Below, one piece after another: positions 16,575-36,083 of a DNA stretch of 64,000 nucleotides. The stretch's first letter is position 1, and each line of letters opens with the position of its first letter. The translations under genes and the position numbers were made by a program. The notes under the pieces were generated by a model. The model ran no database searches, was not told where the DNA came from, and saw only the letters and a list, made by a program, of their open reading frames with translations. The stretch comes from Spiroplasma gladiatoris (GTDB lineage: Bacteria; Bacillota_I; Bacilli_A; Mycoplasmatales; Mycoplasmataceae): contig NZ_CP038013.1 in the NCBI RefSeq assembly GCF_004379335.1, positions 248,001 to 312,000 of the forward strand, given 5' to 3'.

Positions 16575-16593
16575 AAAAAATTACAAATAATGC

Positions 16594-16621
16594 TTGTTAT
16601 TTCGGAAAAATATTCTATAAT
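16594..16621 (+). promoter_or_regulatory. Sigma-70-type promoter of the cellobiose PTS locus
   Basis: TTGTTA (16594-16599) and TATAAT (16616-16621) are separated by 16 bases. The expected start near 16628 leaves a very short leader containing AAAGGAAA before the ATG at 16644. Confidence 0.65.
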
Positions 16622-16643
16622 AATAATGAAAGGAAATAAATAT

Positions 16644-16958
16644 ATGTTAAGAATTTTACTATGTTGTTCAGCAGGAATGTCTACAAGTATGTTGGTTTCA
16701 AAAATGCAATCAGCTGCACGTCGTGAAGGTTTAGAATGTGTTATTGAAGCTATGAGTATTACAGAAGGAAAACAACAAATTGATAAATGAGACGTTATAA
16801 TGTTAGGACCGCAAGTTGGTTATGGTTTAAAAGAATTTGAATCTATAACTAAAAAACCTGTAGCAATTATTCCAGCACCAATTTATGCTGTGGCTAAAGG
16901 AGCCGAAGCAATCCAAATGGCAAAAGAAATGGCTAAAAAGGCAGGTGTACAATTTTAA
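16644..16958 (+). CDS. celA: PTS lactose/cellobiose-type EIIB
   Basis: The product has 104 residues. The phosphocysteine loop LLCCSAGMSTSMLVSKM and MLGPQVGYGLKEFE are typical of the lactose/cellobiose family EIIB, which passes phosphate from EIIA to the sugar bound by EIIC. An in-frame upstream codon near 16590 exists, but AAAGGAAAT sits correctly before 16644 and the promoter -10 overlaps the longer version. The EIIC gene follows; the EIIA is encoded apart, at 33.5 kb. Confidence 0.92.
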
Positions 16959-17078: not shown

Positions 17079-19517
17079 ATGAATACAGAAAAAGGATCAG
17101 CCAATTCCAAAATTAAAGACTGATTTGGTAAAAAATTTGTTCCTGCTATGAATAGATTAGGTTCTCAAAGGCATCTTGCTGCTATGCGTGATGCATTTGG
17201 AACATTATTACCTTTAACTATTACAGGTTCATTAGGATTAATCATTGGTTCTATTGGATTTGCGGGGGGAGGTTCTGGATTTGTATCTATTTTAGGATTA
17301 ATTGCTAAAATGGTGCACCCAGATTATGCTAATGCAGAAATAACAAATTTTATACAATCAGATCCAGTTTTTTCAAAAATTTGATTAATTGGTACATATA
17401 CTTTTAACCAATTAAATACTATAACAATTGGTTATACAGCGATTTGATTTTCATTTACTTTGGGATATTTCTTGTCACTAAGTAGAAACTTCAAATCACC
17501 AATCTTAGCAGGGTTTGCTTCAACAATTGGTTTTATGGCAACAACTATGGGAAACGTAGACTTCTTTAAAGGAGCTGAAGGTCTAATCTCTGCTATTATA
17601 TTTGGTATTATTGCAACAGAATTGTTTGTTTATTTATCAAATGTAAGAGCGTTATATATAAAATTACCAGATGGAGTACCACCAAGTGTTAGTAAATCAT
17701 TTGCAGTATTTCTACCATTCTTAATCACAGCATTAATTATGGCAGGAATGAATTTAGTTGTATTTATTCCAGCATTTTTCTTTAAGGACTTTTTTAGAGT
17801 AAATACTTCTCAATTTTTCTCAGCAACTAATGATGCTAATGCAAATACTTTAAAAGCATTATTTGATGCAATTAAAAATTCTACAGATGGAATTATGGAT
17901 GAAACAGCATTTCAAGCATGACTTGCTAAAGCTCCAGCTGGAATCCAAAATATGGATCAAGATTTATTAAAATCAATTATTAAAAGTTTAAATGAATTAA
18001 CAAATAGTAATTTATCTGAAACTCAAATGTTTGAAAAACTAAAAACAATGTATGAAGGTTATTCAGGAACAGAACAACAATACTTTACAACAGTATTTGC
18101 TTTTATGAGTGGAATGGCTAAAGAAATTTATTCATTTAATTCATTAGCATCAATGCAATTTATTGAACAAAATGGTAACTTAATATTCTTATTAAAATAT
18201 CAAGCTGTTTCAATTAACTACGACCAATTTGGTTTATCAGCTGCTATTTATCAATTCTTTGTATCATTCTTATTAACTTTTGCTAAAGGATCAGGAGGAT
18301 TAGGACTTGCATTAGCATATGCATTCTTTATCTCATTCTTATGATTCTTTGGAATTCATGGATCAAATGTTGTTAATGGTGCATTTTCACCAATTTGATC
18401 TATGTTAAATATTATTAACTTAACACTAATATCTGCCGTTGGATATGAAACAGCTGTAAAAACTGGAGAAATGGGTACATTTGCAGCACCGATATTTGAC
18501 TGTTTTATGAATGTTGGTGGATCTGGAGCTTCTCTTGCCCTAATTGTTGGTACATTTGTATTCTCTAAAAGACAAGATAATAAAAAAATATCAACTTATG
18601 CGGGACCTTGTGGAGTCTTTCAAATTAACGAACCAATTGTATTTGGTTTCCCAATCGTATTAAATAGTAGATATTTAGCGCCATTTATACTAGCTCCAAT
18701 GGTTAATATCTTTATTGCGTGATTAGCTTCACCAGATGTAATGAATTTAACAGGTTATGCAGTACTTACTGTACCATGAACTACTCCATTCTTTATAGCA
18801 TCACCATTAACTTATATTTATGGTGCTGGATGAGCATTTGTTGTAGCACTGGTGTGTTTTGCAGCATCATTTGGAATATACACTCCATTTATAATCATGG
18901 ACAATATTCTTCACTTCAAAAAAATTAGAAAAGAAAATATTGAAGAATACAATAGACAAATGAGATTCTTCAACGATCCATTCTACAGAGCTGGTGAAAA
19001 ATTAGCAAACAAAGTAGAAAGAATTGTTAGTGGTGGAGAAGCAGCAATTGGAAATGCAGAATCACAAAATAGATTCTGAGAACAAAAAGTAACTGACCCA
19101 GTTAAATTAGAAAATAGAAAAGCAAGAAACTTAGATGTTGCAAATATTAAAGTTGATTTCTATGACTATAAAGCTGAAGTTGTTAAAGAAATTGGTGAAT
19201 CAAGAAATAATATTTATAAAGAAGCTTGAGAAAAACCAAGAAGAATTAATGAACTAAAATTTGATTTACATGAAAAATTACTTTCAAAACAAGTAACAGA
19301 TATTAAATCAGAAAAACTTGCTTTACAAGAAAAAATTAAAGCTATTAAAGAAGAATTTGTTGCAAAAATGCCTTCAATTAAAGAAGAACAAGCAAAAGCT
19401 AAAGCAACTCATTCACAATTTAAAAAATCAAAAATAGATCAAGTTAAAGCAAGAAAAGCAGAAATGATTTCAAAAATTAAAGAAGTCAAAGAAGCTTACA
19501 AAGCTAAAAAAGGATAA
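17079..19517 (+). CDS. celB: PTS lactose/cellobiose-type EIIC with large insertion and long C-terminal tail
   Basis: The product has 812 residues; the usual EIIC has about 430-480. Core motifs FGTLLPLTITGSLGLIIGS, WFFGIHGSNVVNG, and FQINEPIVFGFPIVLN mark the sugar-binding membrane transporter. A mostly polar stretch of about 130 residues (roughly 235-370) interrupts the core. After the last transmembrane segment (near residue 605) comes a basic coiled-coil tail of about 200 residues ending in Lys-rich repeats. An AGGAGG Shine-Dalgarno is present. At least ten TGA codons encode Trp. It is followed after 15 bases by a GH1 glycosidase. Confidence 0.88.
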
Positions 19518-19532
19518 ATTTAAGAGGTAATT

Positions 19533-21020
19533 ATGAAAGAATTTCTATTTAGTGCATCAACTTGTGCTCTTCAAATTGAAGGAGCAAGATCGCTAGGTGG
19601 AAGAAGTCAATCAATTTGAGATGAATTTACAAAAAGAAATTATTGTATACCTCCTGTTGGTAAAGCGATCAGAGAAATAAATAGTATTGAAGTTGCAGCA
19701 GATTTTTATCATAAATATAAAACTGATGCAAGAATTATGAATAAATTGGGTTTAAACGCTTTTGTATATAATATGGATTGAACTAGAATCTATCCAAAAG
19801 ATGAACATTACTTAAATCCAGAAGGTATAAAATTTTACATCGACTTCTTTAGTGAGTTTGTTGATAAAAATATTAAACCTATACCAGTTTTATTTCATTG
19901 AGATACACCACTATGAGCAGAGGTTAGAGGGGGATTTCAAAATCCAGAAATCCAAAATTGATTTCGTAATTATGTCAAAACATGTTTCAAACATCTGGGT
20001 AAATACACAGATGTTTGATTTGTTTCAGATGAAAATTCATCTTTTACTAAAGATGCATATCTAAGTGATTACTTACCACCTCAAAAGGTAGGCAAACTAA
20101 ACTTTGTTCAAGCACTTCATAATTTAAATATGATAGCTGCAATTGCAAAAGAAGAGTTTGAATCAGCTAAATTAAAAGGTTATGTATCAAAAAATGCGAT
20201 TATTGGAGTTGATCACGATTGATCGCCTCCAATTGCATATACAGATGAAAAAAATGATTTACAAGCATGTCAAAGATATAATGAATGAAATTTAGAGTTA
20301 TATTTATCACCAAGTATTAAGGGAGAGTATCCTAAATGTTATTTTGATTATATTAAAAAACATAACTTAAATTTTGAAATAAGTAATGATGATTTAGTCT
20401 ATTTAAAAAACAATAAACTTGATTTAATTGGCTGAAATTATTATCGACCTGTATTTATAACTCACTCAATAAAAAACTTTTCAAATAATGATTGACATAT
20501 TCCACCTCAATTTAATGAAGAATTAGATTTATATTATGTATTTCCAAAAGATCAAAAATATACAAAGTGAAATTGATTAATTAATCCAAACCGACTTGTT
20601 TCAGGTGCACAAGAACTTTGCCAAATGTATGGTAAAAATATACCAATTATGATATTAGAGAATGGTATGGGTGACTTTGACAATAAAAGTGCAGATATGA
20701 TTTTAGATACAGATAGGATAAACTACTTATCAGTTCATATTCAAAAAGTTATGGAAGCAAAACAAAAAGGTATAAATTTTATAGGATATTCATTATGAAC
20801 CTATTGTGATATTTTTTCTCCAAGTGGAGGATATCGAAAAGATTATGGACTAGTAAGTGTTGATTTTAATTCTGCAATTAGAGAAAGAAAACCTAAACTT
20901 AGTTATGTTTGATATAAAAATGTAATTAAAAACAAAGGTTTAAAACTTGATTTTGATATGAATCAACTAGTTGAAGAATTACAAAAAACTCTTGATGAGT
21001 GAGATTTATTTTTTAAATAG
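19533..21020 (+). CDS. GH1 family glycosidase (6-phospho-beta-glucosidase-like)
   Basis: The product has 495 residues. The family fold is clear: FSASTCALQIEGA at the N-terminus, FHWDTPLWAEVRGGFQN, the nucleophile region IMILENGMG (Glu376) and YSLWTYCDIFSPSGGYRKDYGLVSVD. The acid/base motif, usually TFNEP, reads SDENS (Glu167 kept, Asn to Asp, Pro to Asn). It probably cleaves phosphorylated beta-glucosides brought in by the adjacent EIIB/EIIC. The altered motif hints at another substrate or reduced activity. AAGAGG Shine-Dalgarno. Confidence 0.85.
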
Positions 21021-21358: not shown

Positions 21359-21985
21359 ATGAAAAAATTTGAAGTTAAAGATAAAGTTTTAATAAAATTT
21401 GGAGATGATTATCGAAAACTAAAAGGTGACTTTGATCGTTTAGAAAAAAAATTTGAACAAAAAGTTTATAATTCTTTATTAGATGAAAATAAAAGAGTTC
21501 AAATTATGATAAAAAAGGCTCTTATTAAAGCGCCAGTTGAAGAAGTTTTTAAAGCATTTGTAAAGTCAGCTATTAATGATTTAAATCCAAATATTGATTT
21601 AAATGAAATTGAAGAAGGATGTTTTGGTATAACTTCAAAAAAAACTAATAATCAAACTTTTAGAATTGAAACTTATGAAGTTGAAGAAGAATTTTCAATT
21701 AAATATTATAGTAAAACTAATTCATACTCACGTTGTGTAAAATTTAAACCTTCAAAAAATAATACTAAAATTAAATACACAGATACAAATATTGGAATGG
21801 AAACAGTTTTTGGTCTTAAACAAAATTATTTAAAAGGAATTTATCAAAAAACAAGAAATATATCTTTTCAAATACAAATTTTAAATCTTAAATTAGAGAT
21901 TGAAAAATTAGATGAAAAAACAATTAATAAATATAATGAAAAACTTCAAAAATTAAATTTAAAACTTCAAAAATATCAAAGATAA
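21359..21985 (+). CDS. Uncharacterised protein, possibly DUF3284-like
   Basis: The product has 208 residues with no membrane segment. Its central part resembles a small SRPBCC-like fold start (MIKKALIKAPVEEVFKAFVKS) followed by a C-terminal coiled coil rich in Leu and Lys. DUF3284 proteins found near beta-glucoside PTS genes in Firmicutes have this look, and this gene does follow such a locus. I cannot confirm the match by eye. A strong terminator follows. Confidence 0.6.
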   Translation: MKKFEVKDKVLIKFGDDYRKLKGDFDRLEKKFEQKVYNSLLDENKRVQIMIKKALIKAPVEEVFKAFVKSAINDLNPNIDLNEIEEGCFGITSKKTNNQTFRIETYEVEEEFSIKYYSKTNSYSRCVKFKPSKNNTKIKYTDTNIGMETVFGLKQNYLKGIYQKTRNISFQIQILNLKLEIEKLDEKTINKYNEKLQKLNLKLQKYQR

Positions 21986-31676: not shown

Positions 31677-33509
31677 ATGAGCAAAAAAAAGAAAGAAAAA
31701 TACGTAACTGATAAGCAATTTAGTTTTAAAAAAATGTTCGCTGCATTAAGAATGGTTGGTGGTGGAATAAAAAGACATCCTATTCTATTTTTTTTGTGTT
31801 CATTAACCACTGTAATTGATTCAATTGCTTGATCTTTTTCAGCAGTGGTTGTTAAAGGATTAACTACAATATTACTTGATTCATCTAATAATACAAAGAC
31901 TTCTTCATTATATGGAATTGTAGATTTAACTTGACAACAATGAATTTATTTAGGAATTGGAATGTTTTTATTATTTGTATTAATGGAATTTTTAACAAAT
32001 ATTACATCAGGAATGTTTTCTAAAAAACTAGAAATTGATGTTAGAAAAGCAGCACTTAAACATTTAGTAGAAATTGATATTAGTTATTATTCAAAAAACC
32101 AAATCGGATTAATAATGACAAGAGTAATTGGAGATAGTCAAAGTTTAGGTGATTCGTTTAATCAATTTTATTTAACATTTATTTGAATGTTAGGAAGTAT
32201 TTTTTCAACTGTTGCAATTATGTTTAGTATTAACACAACCCTTGCCACAATTGCAGTATCACTTTTAATTTTAATGTTAATTGTAATAACTATTATGTTT
32301 ATATTTTTTAGAAGAGCAAATATTATTTCTTTTGATGTTCGACAAAAAATTGATGCAGATATTATTGATCGTTTAATAAATGTAAGATTAATTAAAGCAA
32401 CAGGATCTGAAAATTTTGAAACAAAAAGAAATTTTGAATTACATAAAAAGTATGACGTAAGAAAATCTTATGCGATCAAGTGGCAAGCTTTTTTAAATGT
32501 ATTTAATGGAGTAATGATTTCTTTGTTACCAATAATTATGTTAATTATTAATATATTTTTATATCAAGATAAAATGCCAAGAAGTGAATTTAGTAGTTTA
32601 ACAGTAACTTTTATAAGTGCTAGTACAAATTTTTTAATTAATCTTTCTGTATTAACTCAAATTTTAGGAGGGATAATGTGAATGTCAAATTGTGCTATGC
32701 GTCTTAATTACATTTTTAATGAAAAAACAATTATTAATTTTGAAAAACAACCAATTAAAATTAATTCAATTGAAACTATAGAATTCAAAGATGTAAGTTT
32801 TAATTATCCAGAATCGCCAACAGTAAATGTTTTGCCAAAAATTAATATAAGTTTTGAAAAAGGAAAAAGTTATGCATTTGTTGGTGAAACTGGAGTAGGA
32901 AAATCAACTATTGCAAAAATGCTTTTAAGATTTTATGATGTAACCACTGGAGAATTATTGATTAATGGCATAAATATTAAAAAATTAGATTTATCAAATT
33001 ATTTATCTTATGTTGGTTATGTTGAACAAGAACCTCAAATTTTATATGGAACAGTTATGGATAATTTAAAATATAGTTTAGGATGAGAAGCAAGTGACTC
33101 TCAAGCAATTGAGGCTTCAAAAAAAGCAAAGCTACATGACTTCATAGAATCACTCCCAGATAAATATGATACAATACTAGGGGAACGTGGTTTTATGTTT
33201 TCTGGAGGACAAAAACAAAGATTAATTATAGCGAGATTGTTTTTAAAAAATCCACAACTTCTAATATTAGATGAAGCAACAAGTGCTTTAGATAATATTG
33301 TTGAAAAAGAAATTCAAAGTGAATTAGATTTATTAATGAAAGATAGAACAACAATCGTGATTGCTCATAGATTATCAACTATAAAAAATGTTGATAGTGT
33401 TATTGTTCTTGAAAGAAATATCGGTATAAGCCAAATTGGTAGTTTTGATGAATTAAAAAAAGTACCAGGTAGATTTCAAAAACTATATAATTATGGATTG
33501 TTAAAATAA
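31677..33509 (+). CDS. ABC exporter, fused membrane and ATPase domains
   Basis: The product has 610 residues, a half-transporter that would dimerise. The first ~340 residues contain about six transmembrane helices with the ABC type-1 exporter pattern (LEIDVRKAALKHLVEIDISYY). The ATPase part has Walker A VGETGVGKSTIAK, Q-loop VGYVEQEPQILYG, signature MFSGGQKQRLIIAR, Walker B LLILDEATSALD and the H-loop VIAHRLSTI. Such MdlB/MsbA-like proteins export lipids, drugs or peptides; the substrate cannot be inferred. The EIIA gene follows 20 bases later. Confidence 0.92.
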
Positions 33510-33529: not shown

Positions 33530-33853
33530 ATGGCAACAGAATTAAATTGAGAAGAAATTTCTATGGGGATTATTACTTATGCGGGAATGGCAAAAACAAA
33601 TGCTGTTTTAGCTATTAGAGAAGCAAAAGAAAAAAATTACACTAAAGCAGAAGAATTATTGAAAGAAGCACATGAACATATTATTACTGCTGAAAAAATG
33701 CATATGGATGTAATTACTGCAGAATGTAATGGCGAAAAAATTGAATTTAAAGTATTATTTATGCACTCAGAAGATCAAATGTTAACAACTCAATCAATGC
33801 TTGTTTTAGCAGAAGAAATGATTGAAATGTACAAAATTATACATAATAAATAA
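33530..33853 (+). CDS. PTS lactose/cellobiose-type EIIA
   Basis: The product has 107 residues, a small three-helix protein that trimerises. ISMGIITYAGMAKTNAVLAI and the phosphorylation region KVLFMHSEDQMLTTQS identify the family; His79 is the likely phosphorylated residue. In characterised lactose EIIA the motif is HAQDH; here the second His is Gln83. It probably serves the EIIB/EIIC encoded at 16.6-19.5 kb, which lack a neighbouring EIIA. It could also serve a PTS outside this window. A terminator follows. Confidence 0.88.
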
Positions 33854-33881
33854 AAAAATACTCTTTGGAGTATTTTTTTAT
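33851..33881 (+). terminator. Intrinsic terminator
   Basis: AAAAAATACTC pairs with GAGTATTTTTT, T run after; overlaps the EIIA stop. Confidence 0.85.
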
Positions 33882-33946
33882 TTATTTAATTAAAACTTAA
33901 AATAATTTCTAATTGTTATAAAATATATATAGAAAAGAGGATTAAA

Positions 33947-35047
33947 ATGAAAAGAAAGATTGGATTAAGTATTTTTCCTGAACAATCGACTTTTGAAAAA
34001 GATAAAAATTATCTAGACAAAGCTTATAGTTTAGGATATGAGGTTATGTTTACAAGTATTTTGCATTTTGTAGGAAGTGAAAATGAAAAACAAAAAGCCA
34101 AAATGGTACTAGATGTTGTTAAATATGCTAAACAAAAAGGCTTTTATACTATTGTTGATGTTGAGTATAAATCTATGGAATTAATAGGTATTTCAATAAA
34201 TGACACTTCAAAATGTAATGAGTATGGAATTGATTGTTTGAGATTAGATTCTCCAAGTTTACCAGCTGAAATTGCTTTTGTTACGCATAATAAAGCAAAA
34301 ATTGATATTCAATTAAACATGTCTAATAATGATAGTTTGATTGATAATGTTATGGATTTTAAACCATTATCTCATAGACTAAGTGGTTGTCATAACTTTT
34401 ACCCTTTAGAATTTACAGCATTACCTTTTAATTACTTTTTAGAATGTAATCAAAGATATTTAAAATATAGATTAAATACATCTGCATTTGTAGGAAGTCA
34501 TTTTGGTGAAATGACAAGTGCAGTTGGACAAAAAGAACTGCCAACAATTGAAGAACAAAGACATTTACCTGTCGCTCAACAAGCTAAACTTTTATTTTAC
34601 ACAGATCAAATTGATACTGTTTTATTTGGTAACGCTTATGCTTCAAACGAAGAATTAGAAGAGTTAGCAAAAGTTGACCGTGATGAATTAACATTTGATA
34701 TAAAATGTGATAATGAAGTTAGTGAAATTGAAAAACAAGTTTTACTATTCGATCATTATAGACGTGGAGATATTACAGAATACTTTATAAGATCAACTCA
34801 GTCAAGAGTAAAATTTAAAAATGAAGATATTCCAAGTAGAAACTCAAAATCTAGTTACAATATTGGTGATGTTGTCATCATTAACAATAACGATAAAAAG
34901 TATAAAGGTGAAATTCATATAATTTTAAAAAATAATTTTATAGATAAAAACAATAAATATAACTATTTGGCAACAATTAAACAATCAGAAATGAGATTGT
35001 TAGAATTTGTTACACCATGAAAACAATTTAGATTTAATTTAACCTAG
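33947..35047 (+). CDS. MupG/DUF871 family protein (6-phospho-N-acetylmuramidase-like)
   Basis: The product has 366 residues. It begins KIGLSIFPEQS, contains GIDCLRLDSP and the hallmark SGCHNFYPLEFTALP, and ends in a beta-rich domain with YNIGDVVIINN; this layout is that of DUF871. MupG, a characterised member, cleaves MurNAc-6-phosphate glycosides in peptidoglycan recycling. Mollicutes have no wall, so the role here may be cleavage of another PTS-imported phosphoglycoside. It has its own GAGG Shine-Dalgarno and lies just after a PTS EIIA gene. Confidence 0.82.
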
Positions 35048-35134: not shown

Positions 35135-36083
35135 ATGAAAGTGACAATTTCTAAAACAATTAAGTTTTTTTCTGTAATTACAATTTTATCAACAACAGCT
35201 TTTAATGTTATTTCTTGTGATTTTGATAAAACAAAAAAATACAGAAAAGATAAATATTAACAATTTAGAGTTTCCTAACTTTAAACCTGGAAGTTATGTA
35301 AGTAATATGGAGTATAGCGTTAATAAACTTTTATATGATGCCTATAAAAGTAGAACGGATTTATCGTCTTTTGGGTCACCCTTAAATAACAAAGACTATA
35401 CAATTAATTTTTCTAAATTTTCAACATACGATTTTAAAACCTTAAAAGGTAATAAAAATATTATAATAAAAGCAAAAGATGATTCAAAAATCTTAACAGG
35501 AGAAAAAAATATATATGTTGATTATTTTGATATAAAAGTTTTTAATAAAAAAAATACAAGATTAAAGGCTGGAAGAAAAGGAAAAAATTGATATATTGAC
35601 AGAATAAATTATAGTTTTAGAAATGATGAATCTGAATTAAAACCTAAATATAAAAAAGATTATGAAATATCTTCTACTAATAACGATAAAAATATTGATA
35701 CTTTCATTAAAGATGAAACTATAACTGTTAAAGCAATTAATAGTGAAAAAAGTAATTTAAAAGGTAGCTTTAACATTTATGTATATGGATATGAAATAGA
35801 TCATCCTGAAAGTTTGTTTTTAAATAATATTCAAATATTTAAAACAAAAAAATATGAAAGTGATGACTACTATAGAGAATGTTTTTATAATAGTACTTTT
35901 ATAAAAAAAACACTTTTAGAAGAAAATAAAGATTATAAATTAACTTTTGAAAGAGAGGAATATTCAATTCCAGATTCAAAAATAGGACTTAAAAAACTAC
36001 TTAATATAAAGGCAACTTCAATAAAAGAATCTAAAATTCTAATAGGTGAAAAAACTATTGCACTTAAGTTGAATTGATATTAA
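35135..36083 (+). pseudogene. Lipoprotein gene off frame at an A7 run (possible phase-variable gene)
   Basis: AAGAGGAT and ATG at 35135 start a lipoprotein signal ending NVISC. The seven A at 35233-35239 then shift the frame; with six A the reading continues as DFDKTKNTEKININNLEF to TAA at 36081-36083 (about 315 residues). The mature part has three related modules, each beginning near KDY and ending in a beta pattern such as IKAKDDSKILTGEKNIYV. This recalls the repeat modules of spiralin-type lipoproteins. The body is otherwise intact, so the frame change is recent or switchable. Confidence 0.72.

Follow-up and report, generated by a model that had tools for sequence, protein, structure and literature searches.

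Why would a bacterium without a cell wall carry a homologue of an enzyme of wall recycling? The question is raised by a gene in a 64,000-nucleotide stretch of the Spiroplasma gladiatoris genome (contig NZ_CP038013.1, positions 248,001 to 312,000; hereafter the window). An earlier note, made from the sequence alone, had described its product as a homologue of the 6-phospho-muramidase MupG and proposed that it processes a scavenged muropeptide or has a new substrate. The answer that we favor, with a probability of roughly 55%, is that the protein is a cytosolic hydrolase of diacetylchitobiose-6-phosphate. The comparisons below draw on the genome that contains the window (one contig of 1,164,642 bases, 99.6% complete) and on a genus set of 20 genomes (G000-G019) in which it is G000.

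The window encodes an intact GH170 protein

The gene (33947..35047, + strand) encodes a GH170 (MupG_N+MupG_C) 6-phosphoglycosidase homologue of 366 aa when read with code 4, and its lone TGA codon, at residue 358, falls in a column that is an invariant Trp in 39/39 sequences (alignment A2). Both members of the Pfam pair for GH170/DUF871 (PF19200 and PF05913) are matched at full length and far above the Pfam cut-offs, MupG_N at residues 5-241 (E 9.7e-79) and MupG_C at residues 248-364 (E 4e-34). The GCHNFYP motif that the earlier note called the intact DUF871 hallmark is indeed present, at residues 147-153, but the family motif is better written as HN(F/Y)YP; GCHNFYP is usual in the branch outside MupG, and Staphylococcus aureus MupG has FCHNYYP. 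Core residues common to both GH170 branches, whose catalytic role is putative, are retained in the window protein (19/19).

The orthologue in the sister genome G008 is 82% identical, with dN of 0.12 and dS of 1.03 (dN/dS about 0.12). Because dN is far below dS, the gene is under selection, and this, together with the full-length family match, rules out a chance or decayed open reading frame. Modelled by AlphaFold2 with 38 relatives, the protein reached a pLDDT of 92.5, and the best Foldseek matches of the model, 1x7f (TM 0.90/0.95) and 2p0o (TM 0.72/0.74), likewise consist of a TIM barrel and a C-terminal domain. The nearest solved structure is 1x7f (39.5% identity, matched end to end, E 2.1e-75), a Bacillus cereus 'outer surface protein' that is 'uncharacterized' in its PDB entry title. 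A phage origin was considered and rejected, as there was no PHROG match and no close viral fold (best rows TM ~0.4 or less by query length). The premise of the question is therefore sound: this is a GH170 enzyme homologue in a mollicute genome.

The locus lies beside a PTS EIIA gene but is separated from it by a hairpin

Directly upstream lies a Lac/cellobiose-type PTS EIIA gene (33530..33853, + strand; PF02255, E 1.4e-28), the only PF02255 match in the genome, with an HSEDQMLT stretch whose His is presumably the phosphorylation site. The gene order reported in the earlier note is thus correct, but a terminator-like hairpin (33846..33885, + strand; 18 pairs, -16.1 kcal/mol), absent from the list of a G+C-demanding terminator scan, stands between the two genes. 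Together with a ribosome-binding-like AGAGGA upstream of the GH170 gene, the hairpin suggests that EIIA and GH170 are transcribed separately in the window; their adjacency then looks like the remnant of a longer operon and is no proof of co-transcription. An ABC exporter-type gene (31677..33509, + strand) precedes EIIA and flanks the locus in several relatives too; in the window and in G008 the locus is reduced to ABC-EIIA-GH170, with no ROK gene, EIIC or EIIB at the window locus. Downstream, at 35135-36083, a lipoprotein-like signal peptide (MKVTISK...VISCDF) lies in one frame that stops after 41 codons, and a Spiralin-domain ORF runs from 35205 in another frame, with a run of seven A at 35233-35239; the arrangement may reflect a frameshift in the gene, a switch or an error in the sequence.

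Lac/cellobiose-type PTS components A, B and C are all encoded in the window, in two places. About 12.5 kb upstream of the GH170 gene lie an EIIB gene (16590..16958, + strand), with an intact CSAGMSTS stretch that we take to be its functional site, an EIIC gene (17079..19517, + strand; 812 aa, with a large insert) and, by NCBIfam scan, a gene for a GH1 6-phospho-beta-glycosidase-like protein (19533..21020, + strand). The insert places about 160 residues between the halves of the PTS_EIIC domain (265187-265759 and 266243-266698 on the contig); other EIICs of the same cluster are also long, up to 743 aa. This EIIC groups (100/100) with one EIIC of G011 and with that of G015, which belongs to an EIIC-GH1-GH170-GH1 cluster. 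Elsewhere in the genome are a second Lac-type EIIC (L058:6850-8979) and an EIIBC (L058:11058-12824) whose best NCBIfam match is GlcNAc-specific but below cut-off.

Past the GH1 gene, a 208-aa protein (21359..21985, + strand) bears a weak, unproven resemblance to DUF3284, the ChbD family. This assignment was not adopted, as four tests were all weak or negative. A six-frame search gave 21.5 bits, under the 23.7 cut-off, and direct hmmscan gave no DUF3284 match; a relative in L095 scored 17.5 bits, BLASTP against the DUF3284 protein of L129 gave E 0.79, and hhalign gave a probability of 10%. A single-sequence fold (pLDDT 36.9) was uninformative.

The presence of the GH1 gene introduces the main rival to the chitobiose model, cellobiose-6-phosphate or another phospho-disaccharide. 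Specifically, the substrate of the window GH170 might be cellobiose-6-phosphate or a different beta-glucoside-6-phosphate. Such an activity has been proposed for CelX, a DUF871 protein of Bacillus coagulans CELO2 that is, like the window protein, a GH170 member linked to a Lac/cellobiose PTS. In the available text of that report, CelX is discussed for cellobiose with a predicted enzyme role, and the CELO2 operon (celR-celB-celA-celX-celC), which has no 6-phospho-beta-glucosidase gene, enabled E. coli to take up and consume cellobiose (PMC6271610). An EIIB-EIIC pair accompanied by a GH1 gene, as in the window, is also what is seen in cellobiose systems, and this counts against chitobiose. However, the stretches of G000 that were read hold six members of GH1 cluster c5 (2/6 checked by NCBIfam), so cellobiose-6-phosphate may already be served, and nine Enterococcus loci carry GH1, EIIA, EIIB, EIIC and GH170 on one strand within 5 kb, which suggests that the two hydrolases have different substrates. 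We regard a beta-glucoside-6-phosphate as an unlikely substrate.

The MurNAc pathway is incomplete in the genome

The tie of GH170 to a PTS in a wall-less genome makes an imported phosphoglycoside the likely substrate, as the earlier note had supposed; its proposed source, scavenged muropeptides, fared less well. No MurQ match was found in G000 at E 1e-3 or 1e-30. An EIIC search of the same genome gave 14 matches representing 11 genes, and when all 11 were scanned with NCBIfam, MurP was the best match for none of them (the MurP model scored at most 118.5, and its cut-off is 516). Neither partner expected of MurNAc scavenging, a MurP-like EII or the MurQ etherase, was thus found in G000, and in the absence of MurQ, MurNAc-6-phosphate would be a dead end there by any known route.

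The characterised relative, the 6-phospho-N-acetylmuramidase MupG of S. aureus (PMC6262408), shares with the window protein its family, its core residues and a PTS-linked 6-phosphoglycosidase role. It is, however, only 25.0% identical, belongs to another branch (Leu11/Asp229 type) and is encoded in a row together with MurQ, an EIIC and MurR/RpiR. According to the published excerpts available, some spiroplasmas carry murP and murQ (PMC4607517, PMC5726471, PMC12453411), murP alone is described in PMC3563533, and MurNAc use is lost or absent in other spiroplasmas (PMC4607517, PMC5726471, PMC3563533, PMC12453411). A literature search for MupG with Spiroplasma returned no paper, and among the titles returned for Spiroplasma with chitobiose none concerned the GH170 gene.

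The window protein and MupG fall in different branches of GH170

In a 50-row tree, S. aureus MupG falls in a 5-row set (100/96) with MurQ-linked Lacticaseibacillus paracasei and Aerococcus proteins, a Collinsella protein and 2p0o. The window GH170 falls in a 43-row set (99/97) that includes 1x7f and proteins of Borrelia, Listeria, Priestia, C. difficile and E. faecalis. Between the two sets lie L081 and L093, mollicute proteins linked to MurQ. Relationships within the MupG set are unreliable, because long branches come together there. Seven branch-marking positions (11, 127, 147, 151, 184, 212 and 229) were picked from 36 versus 5 rows, after 9 of the 50 rows (L081, L093, L092, L080_5746, L066, L069, L079, L080_11815 and L094_15628) had been set aside. 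At position 229 the window protein has Asn and S. aureus MupG has Asp. As expected from their MurQ linkage, L081 and L093 have Asp229, but L081 shares Pro11, Phe151, Ser184 and Gln212 with the other branch and L093 shares Phe151 and Gln212, so that of the markers only position 229 holds up. Contrary to the rule, L080_5746 is MurQ-linked yet has Asn229, and Thr229 occurs in three Dga-linked genus rows and in L092.

Position 229 was then read in a class sample of 218 Bacilli genomes, of which 60 have GH170; we read 60 stretches, which contain 62 copies, leaving out the window's own family and order and three same-class places (G135:C86, G175:C22 and G124:C7). MurQ lay within 5 kb of 25/35 Asp229 copies versus 2/26 Asn229 copies (one copy has Ser). 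Counted per genome (46), MurQ was present in 30/32 genomes with an Asp229 copy versus 3/13 with Asn229 only (one other), the entry for G135 (Asn229-only with MurQ) being incomplete because its left-out place C86 lies beside MurQ. Fisher values for this count and for the 60-genome sample described below take no account of kinship among the genomes. On a 109-row tree residue 229 changes only twice, which amounts to one old split and not to many independent trials; residue 229 therefore does not by itself prove specificity, and we use it as a branch marker only.

Among 80 named loci (81 copies), 80 copies have Asn229 and 6 of these lie near MurQ, although these loci were selected for their similarity to the window and do not form a fair sample. 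In the fetched Asn229 copies as a whole, MurQ lies within 5 kb in 8/106 when both strands are counted; a one-strand count gives 5/106 and misses divergent murQ genes in Lactobacillaceae. Divergent murQ genes lie close to the GH170 members of L. curvatus and Priestia. Long GH170 copies of 850-895 aa make up 12/62 of the class sample, and 10 of the 12 lie near MurQ. In one of them (L247:2749-5397), on which Pfam was run, a GH3 N-terminal domain is fused ahead of MupG_N+MupG_C in one protein, and we assume the same fusion in the other 11.

The 8/106 Asn229 relatives near MurQ, the cluster in G011 described below, the murP and murQ genes of some spiroplasmas, the family name and the characterised relative all speak for a 6-phospho-muramidase that scavenges MurNAc sugars, with MurNAc-6-phosphate used by a novel route. 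Set against the missing MurQ and MurP, the distance from MupG and the uneven distribution of MurQ across the Bacilli sample, such an activity for the window protein is very improbable. The other option in the earlier note, a new substrate, is compatible with the branch, the partners and the absence of MurQ.

Dga-type genes surround a further part of the Asn229 branch. DgaE/KDGP-aldolase genes accompany 40/106 of the fetched Asn229 copies, and Dga-type surroundings were seen for 38/80 named ones (e.g., C. difficile and E. faecalis). In L114, L116 and these 38 named loci, GH170 lies near a deacetylase, DgaE, a KDGP aldolase and often a kinase. This is apparently a second, non-chitobiose setting that ends in an amino-sugar acid pathway, and the Asn229 branch is functionally mixed. 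Another phospho-disaccharide, for instance the acidic amino sugar implied by these operons, might thus be the substrate of the window protein, or its specificity might be broad. However, no Dga genes are present at the window locus, and those of three genus genomes accompany a different GH170 paralogue that is 26-28% identical to the window protein; we give this reading little credence.

Close relatives pair GH170 with a Lac-type PTS

All 20 genus genomes have GH170, Lac EIIA and NagA (20/20 each) and two have MurQ (G002 and G011), although G006, G012 and G016 have only a more distant GH170 paralogue, located next to an RpiR gene and 37-39% identical, and the GH170 of G005 is split into two frames. 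EIIC-EIIB-GH170 stand in a row in 12/20 genomes (G001-G005, G007, G009, G010, G013, G015, G017 and G018), with a fragmented EIIC in G005 and G013. The fuller genus order is ABC-EIIA-ROK kinase-lipoprotein-like-EIIC-EIIB-GH170-small protein-GlcNAc-type EIIBC; a GlcNAc-specific model was the best NCBIfam match of EIIBC in the one operon member tested, and the ROK gene is present at the locus in 10 genus stretches (of 20 genomes). The EIIC of this long operon forms a separate, strongly diverged branch from the window EIIC at 17079.

In a sample of 60 genomes common to the MurQ, GH170 and Lac EIIA searches, 33 of the 35 genomes with GH170 have Lac EIIA, 10/35 have MurQ and 35/35 have NagA, one of the 35 (G033) holding a decayed fragment with in-frame stops. 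Outside the genus, Lac EIIA accompanies GH170 in 13/15 genomes and MurQ in 8/15, and gene rows include EIIB-EIIA-EIIC-GH170 (L094 and L095) and EIIC-EIIB-EIIA-EIIC-GH170 (L096). In the close relatives of the window, the usual partner of GH170 is a Lac-type PTS.

The exception is a cluster in G011 (L080:5746-10366), in which a Lac-branch GH170 occurs with EIIA, MurQ, a Lac-type EIIC and RpiR; the enzyme may handle a muramic-acid sugar there. In another mollicute, a GH170-like stretch in three matched pieces (L119:21-1044, a Mycoplasmopsis columboralis plasmid record) directly precedes an annotated anhydro-N-acetylmuramic acid kinase.

Chitobiose-linked relatives point to diacetylchitobiose-6-phosphate as a probable substrate

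Two relatives connect the family to chitobiose. BBB07 of Borreliella burgdorferi (L113:4769-5866, plasmid cp26, NC_001903.1) is a full-length GH170 protein that falls on the same side of the tree as the window protein, is 34.0% identical to the window protein and agrees with it at 7/7 branch-marking and 19/19 core positions. It directly follows chbA-chbB, with chbC divergent, as in B. miyamotoi. Its annotation, alpha3-beta1 integrin-binding protein, differs from the enzyme homologue label of the window protein. The consulted portions of the literature describe chbCAB as the borrelial chitobiose PTS, BBB07 as a surface protein or integrin binder whose integrin and cytokine role was described in vitro, and the BBB05-7 deletion as viable in vitro (PMC4331090, PMC3485029, PMC2229028, PMC5073149, PMC2845121); these portions contain no report of enzymatic activity of BBB07, and none of the papers listed by literature searches treated BBB07 as an enzyme. 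A bb0002/bb0620 double mutant still uses chitobiose, and chbC is needed for chitin use (PMC2845121), which leaves a place for a candidate intracellular hydrolase in Borrelia. BBB07 is thus a candidate chitobiose-phosphate hydrolase of the Lyme spirochaetes.

The second relative is ChbE, a GH170 protein of L. paracasei that is partnered, like the window protein, with a cellobiose-type PTS (PMC12791066). As far as the accessible text of that study goes, chbE and chbC mutants lost growth on diacetylchitobiose, a chbD mutant was delayed, nagA was required, and the enzyme activity of ChbE was itself inferred from genetics (PMC12791066). ChbE and ChbD (DUF3284) are encoded in one chb operon, whereas the window counterparts are split and the DUF3284 protein is uncertain. 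As a stand-in for ChbE we used the GH170 of G271 (L129), which lies in the row EIIB-EIIC-EIIA-GH1-DUF3284-GH170, i.e., the chb structural genes plus GH1, and this row is close to the window's own gene set. The stand-in is 26.3% identical to S. aureus MupG, close to the published 26% for ChbE (PMC12791066), and 33% identical to the window protein; position 229 is Asn in both, but at 127, 147 and 212 the two proteins are different.

A proposed route for chitobiose use

In the pathway that we propose, a Lac-type PTS, composed of EIIA 33530 with EIIB 16590 and EIIC 17079 (paired across two places in the window) or with the second Lac-type EIIC, would import and 6-phosphorylate N,N'-diacetylchitobiose. 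Cytosolic GH170 would then cleave 6-phospho-diacetylchitobiose to GlcNAc-6-phosphate and GlcNAc. NagA and NagB, both found in G000 above cut-off, would feed GlcNAc-6-phosphate into glycolysis, and free GlcNAc would be phosphorylated by a ROK-type kinase, encoded at the locus in 10/20 genus genomes but not in the window; G000 has two ROK proteins. We infer the substrate, the PTS pairing, the specificity of the kinase and the direction of flux from these gene sets; NagA, NagB and the relatives' ROK kinase and GlcNAc-type transporter would fit a GlcNAc-GlcNAc disaccharide. A GH18 chitinase match is absent from G000 at E 1e-3, so that other organisms would have to supply the chitobiose; 15/19 other genus genomes have a GH18 match, that of G002 only under the family cut-off. 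Besides the GH1 neighbor, the hairpin that parts EIIA from GH170 and the location of ROK, EIIC and EIIB away from the locus weigh against chitobiose. So do the mixed gene settings of the Asn229 branch, including its members near MurQ, and the weakness of the DUF3284 match.

More tentatively, and at somewhat less than even odds, the Asn229 branch may represent a widespread class of 6-phospho-diacetylchitobiose hydrolases in arthropod-associated bacteria, spiroplasmas and Lyme and relapsing-fever spirochaetes, with BBB07 as the borrelial chitobiose enzyme and host binding as its second role. An enzyme of wall recycling in a cell without a wall looks like a paradox, but this is removed, as MupG names one branch only and the family name misleads. 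For spiroplasmas, symbionts of chitin-bearing hosts, the gene offers a plausible route to chitobiose use, and for Borrelia it offers a concrete enzyme candidate for the same purpose.
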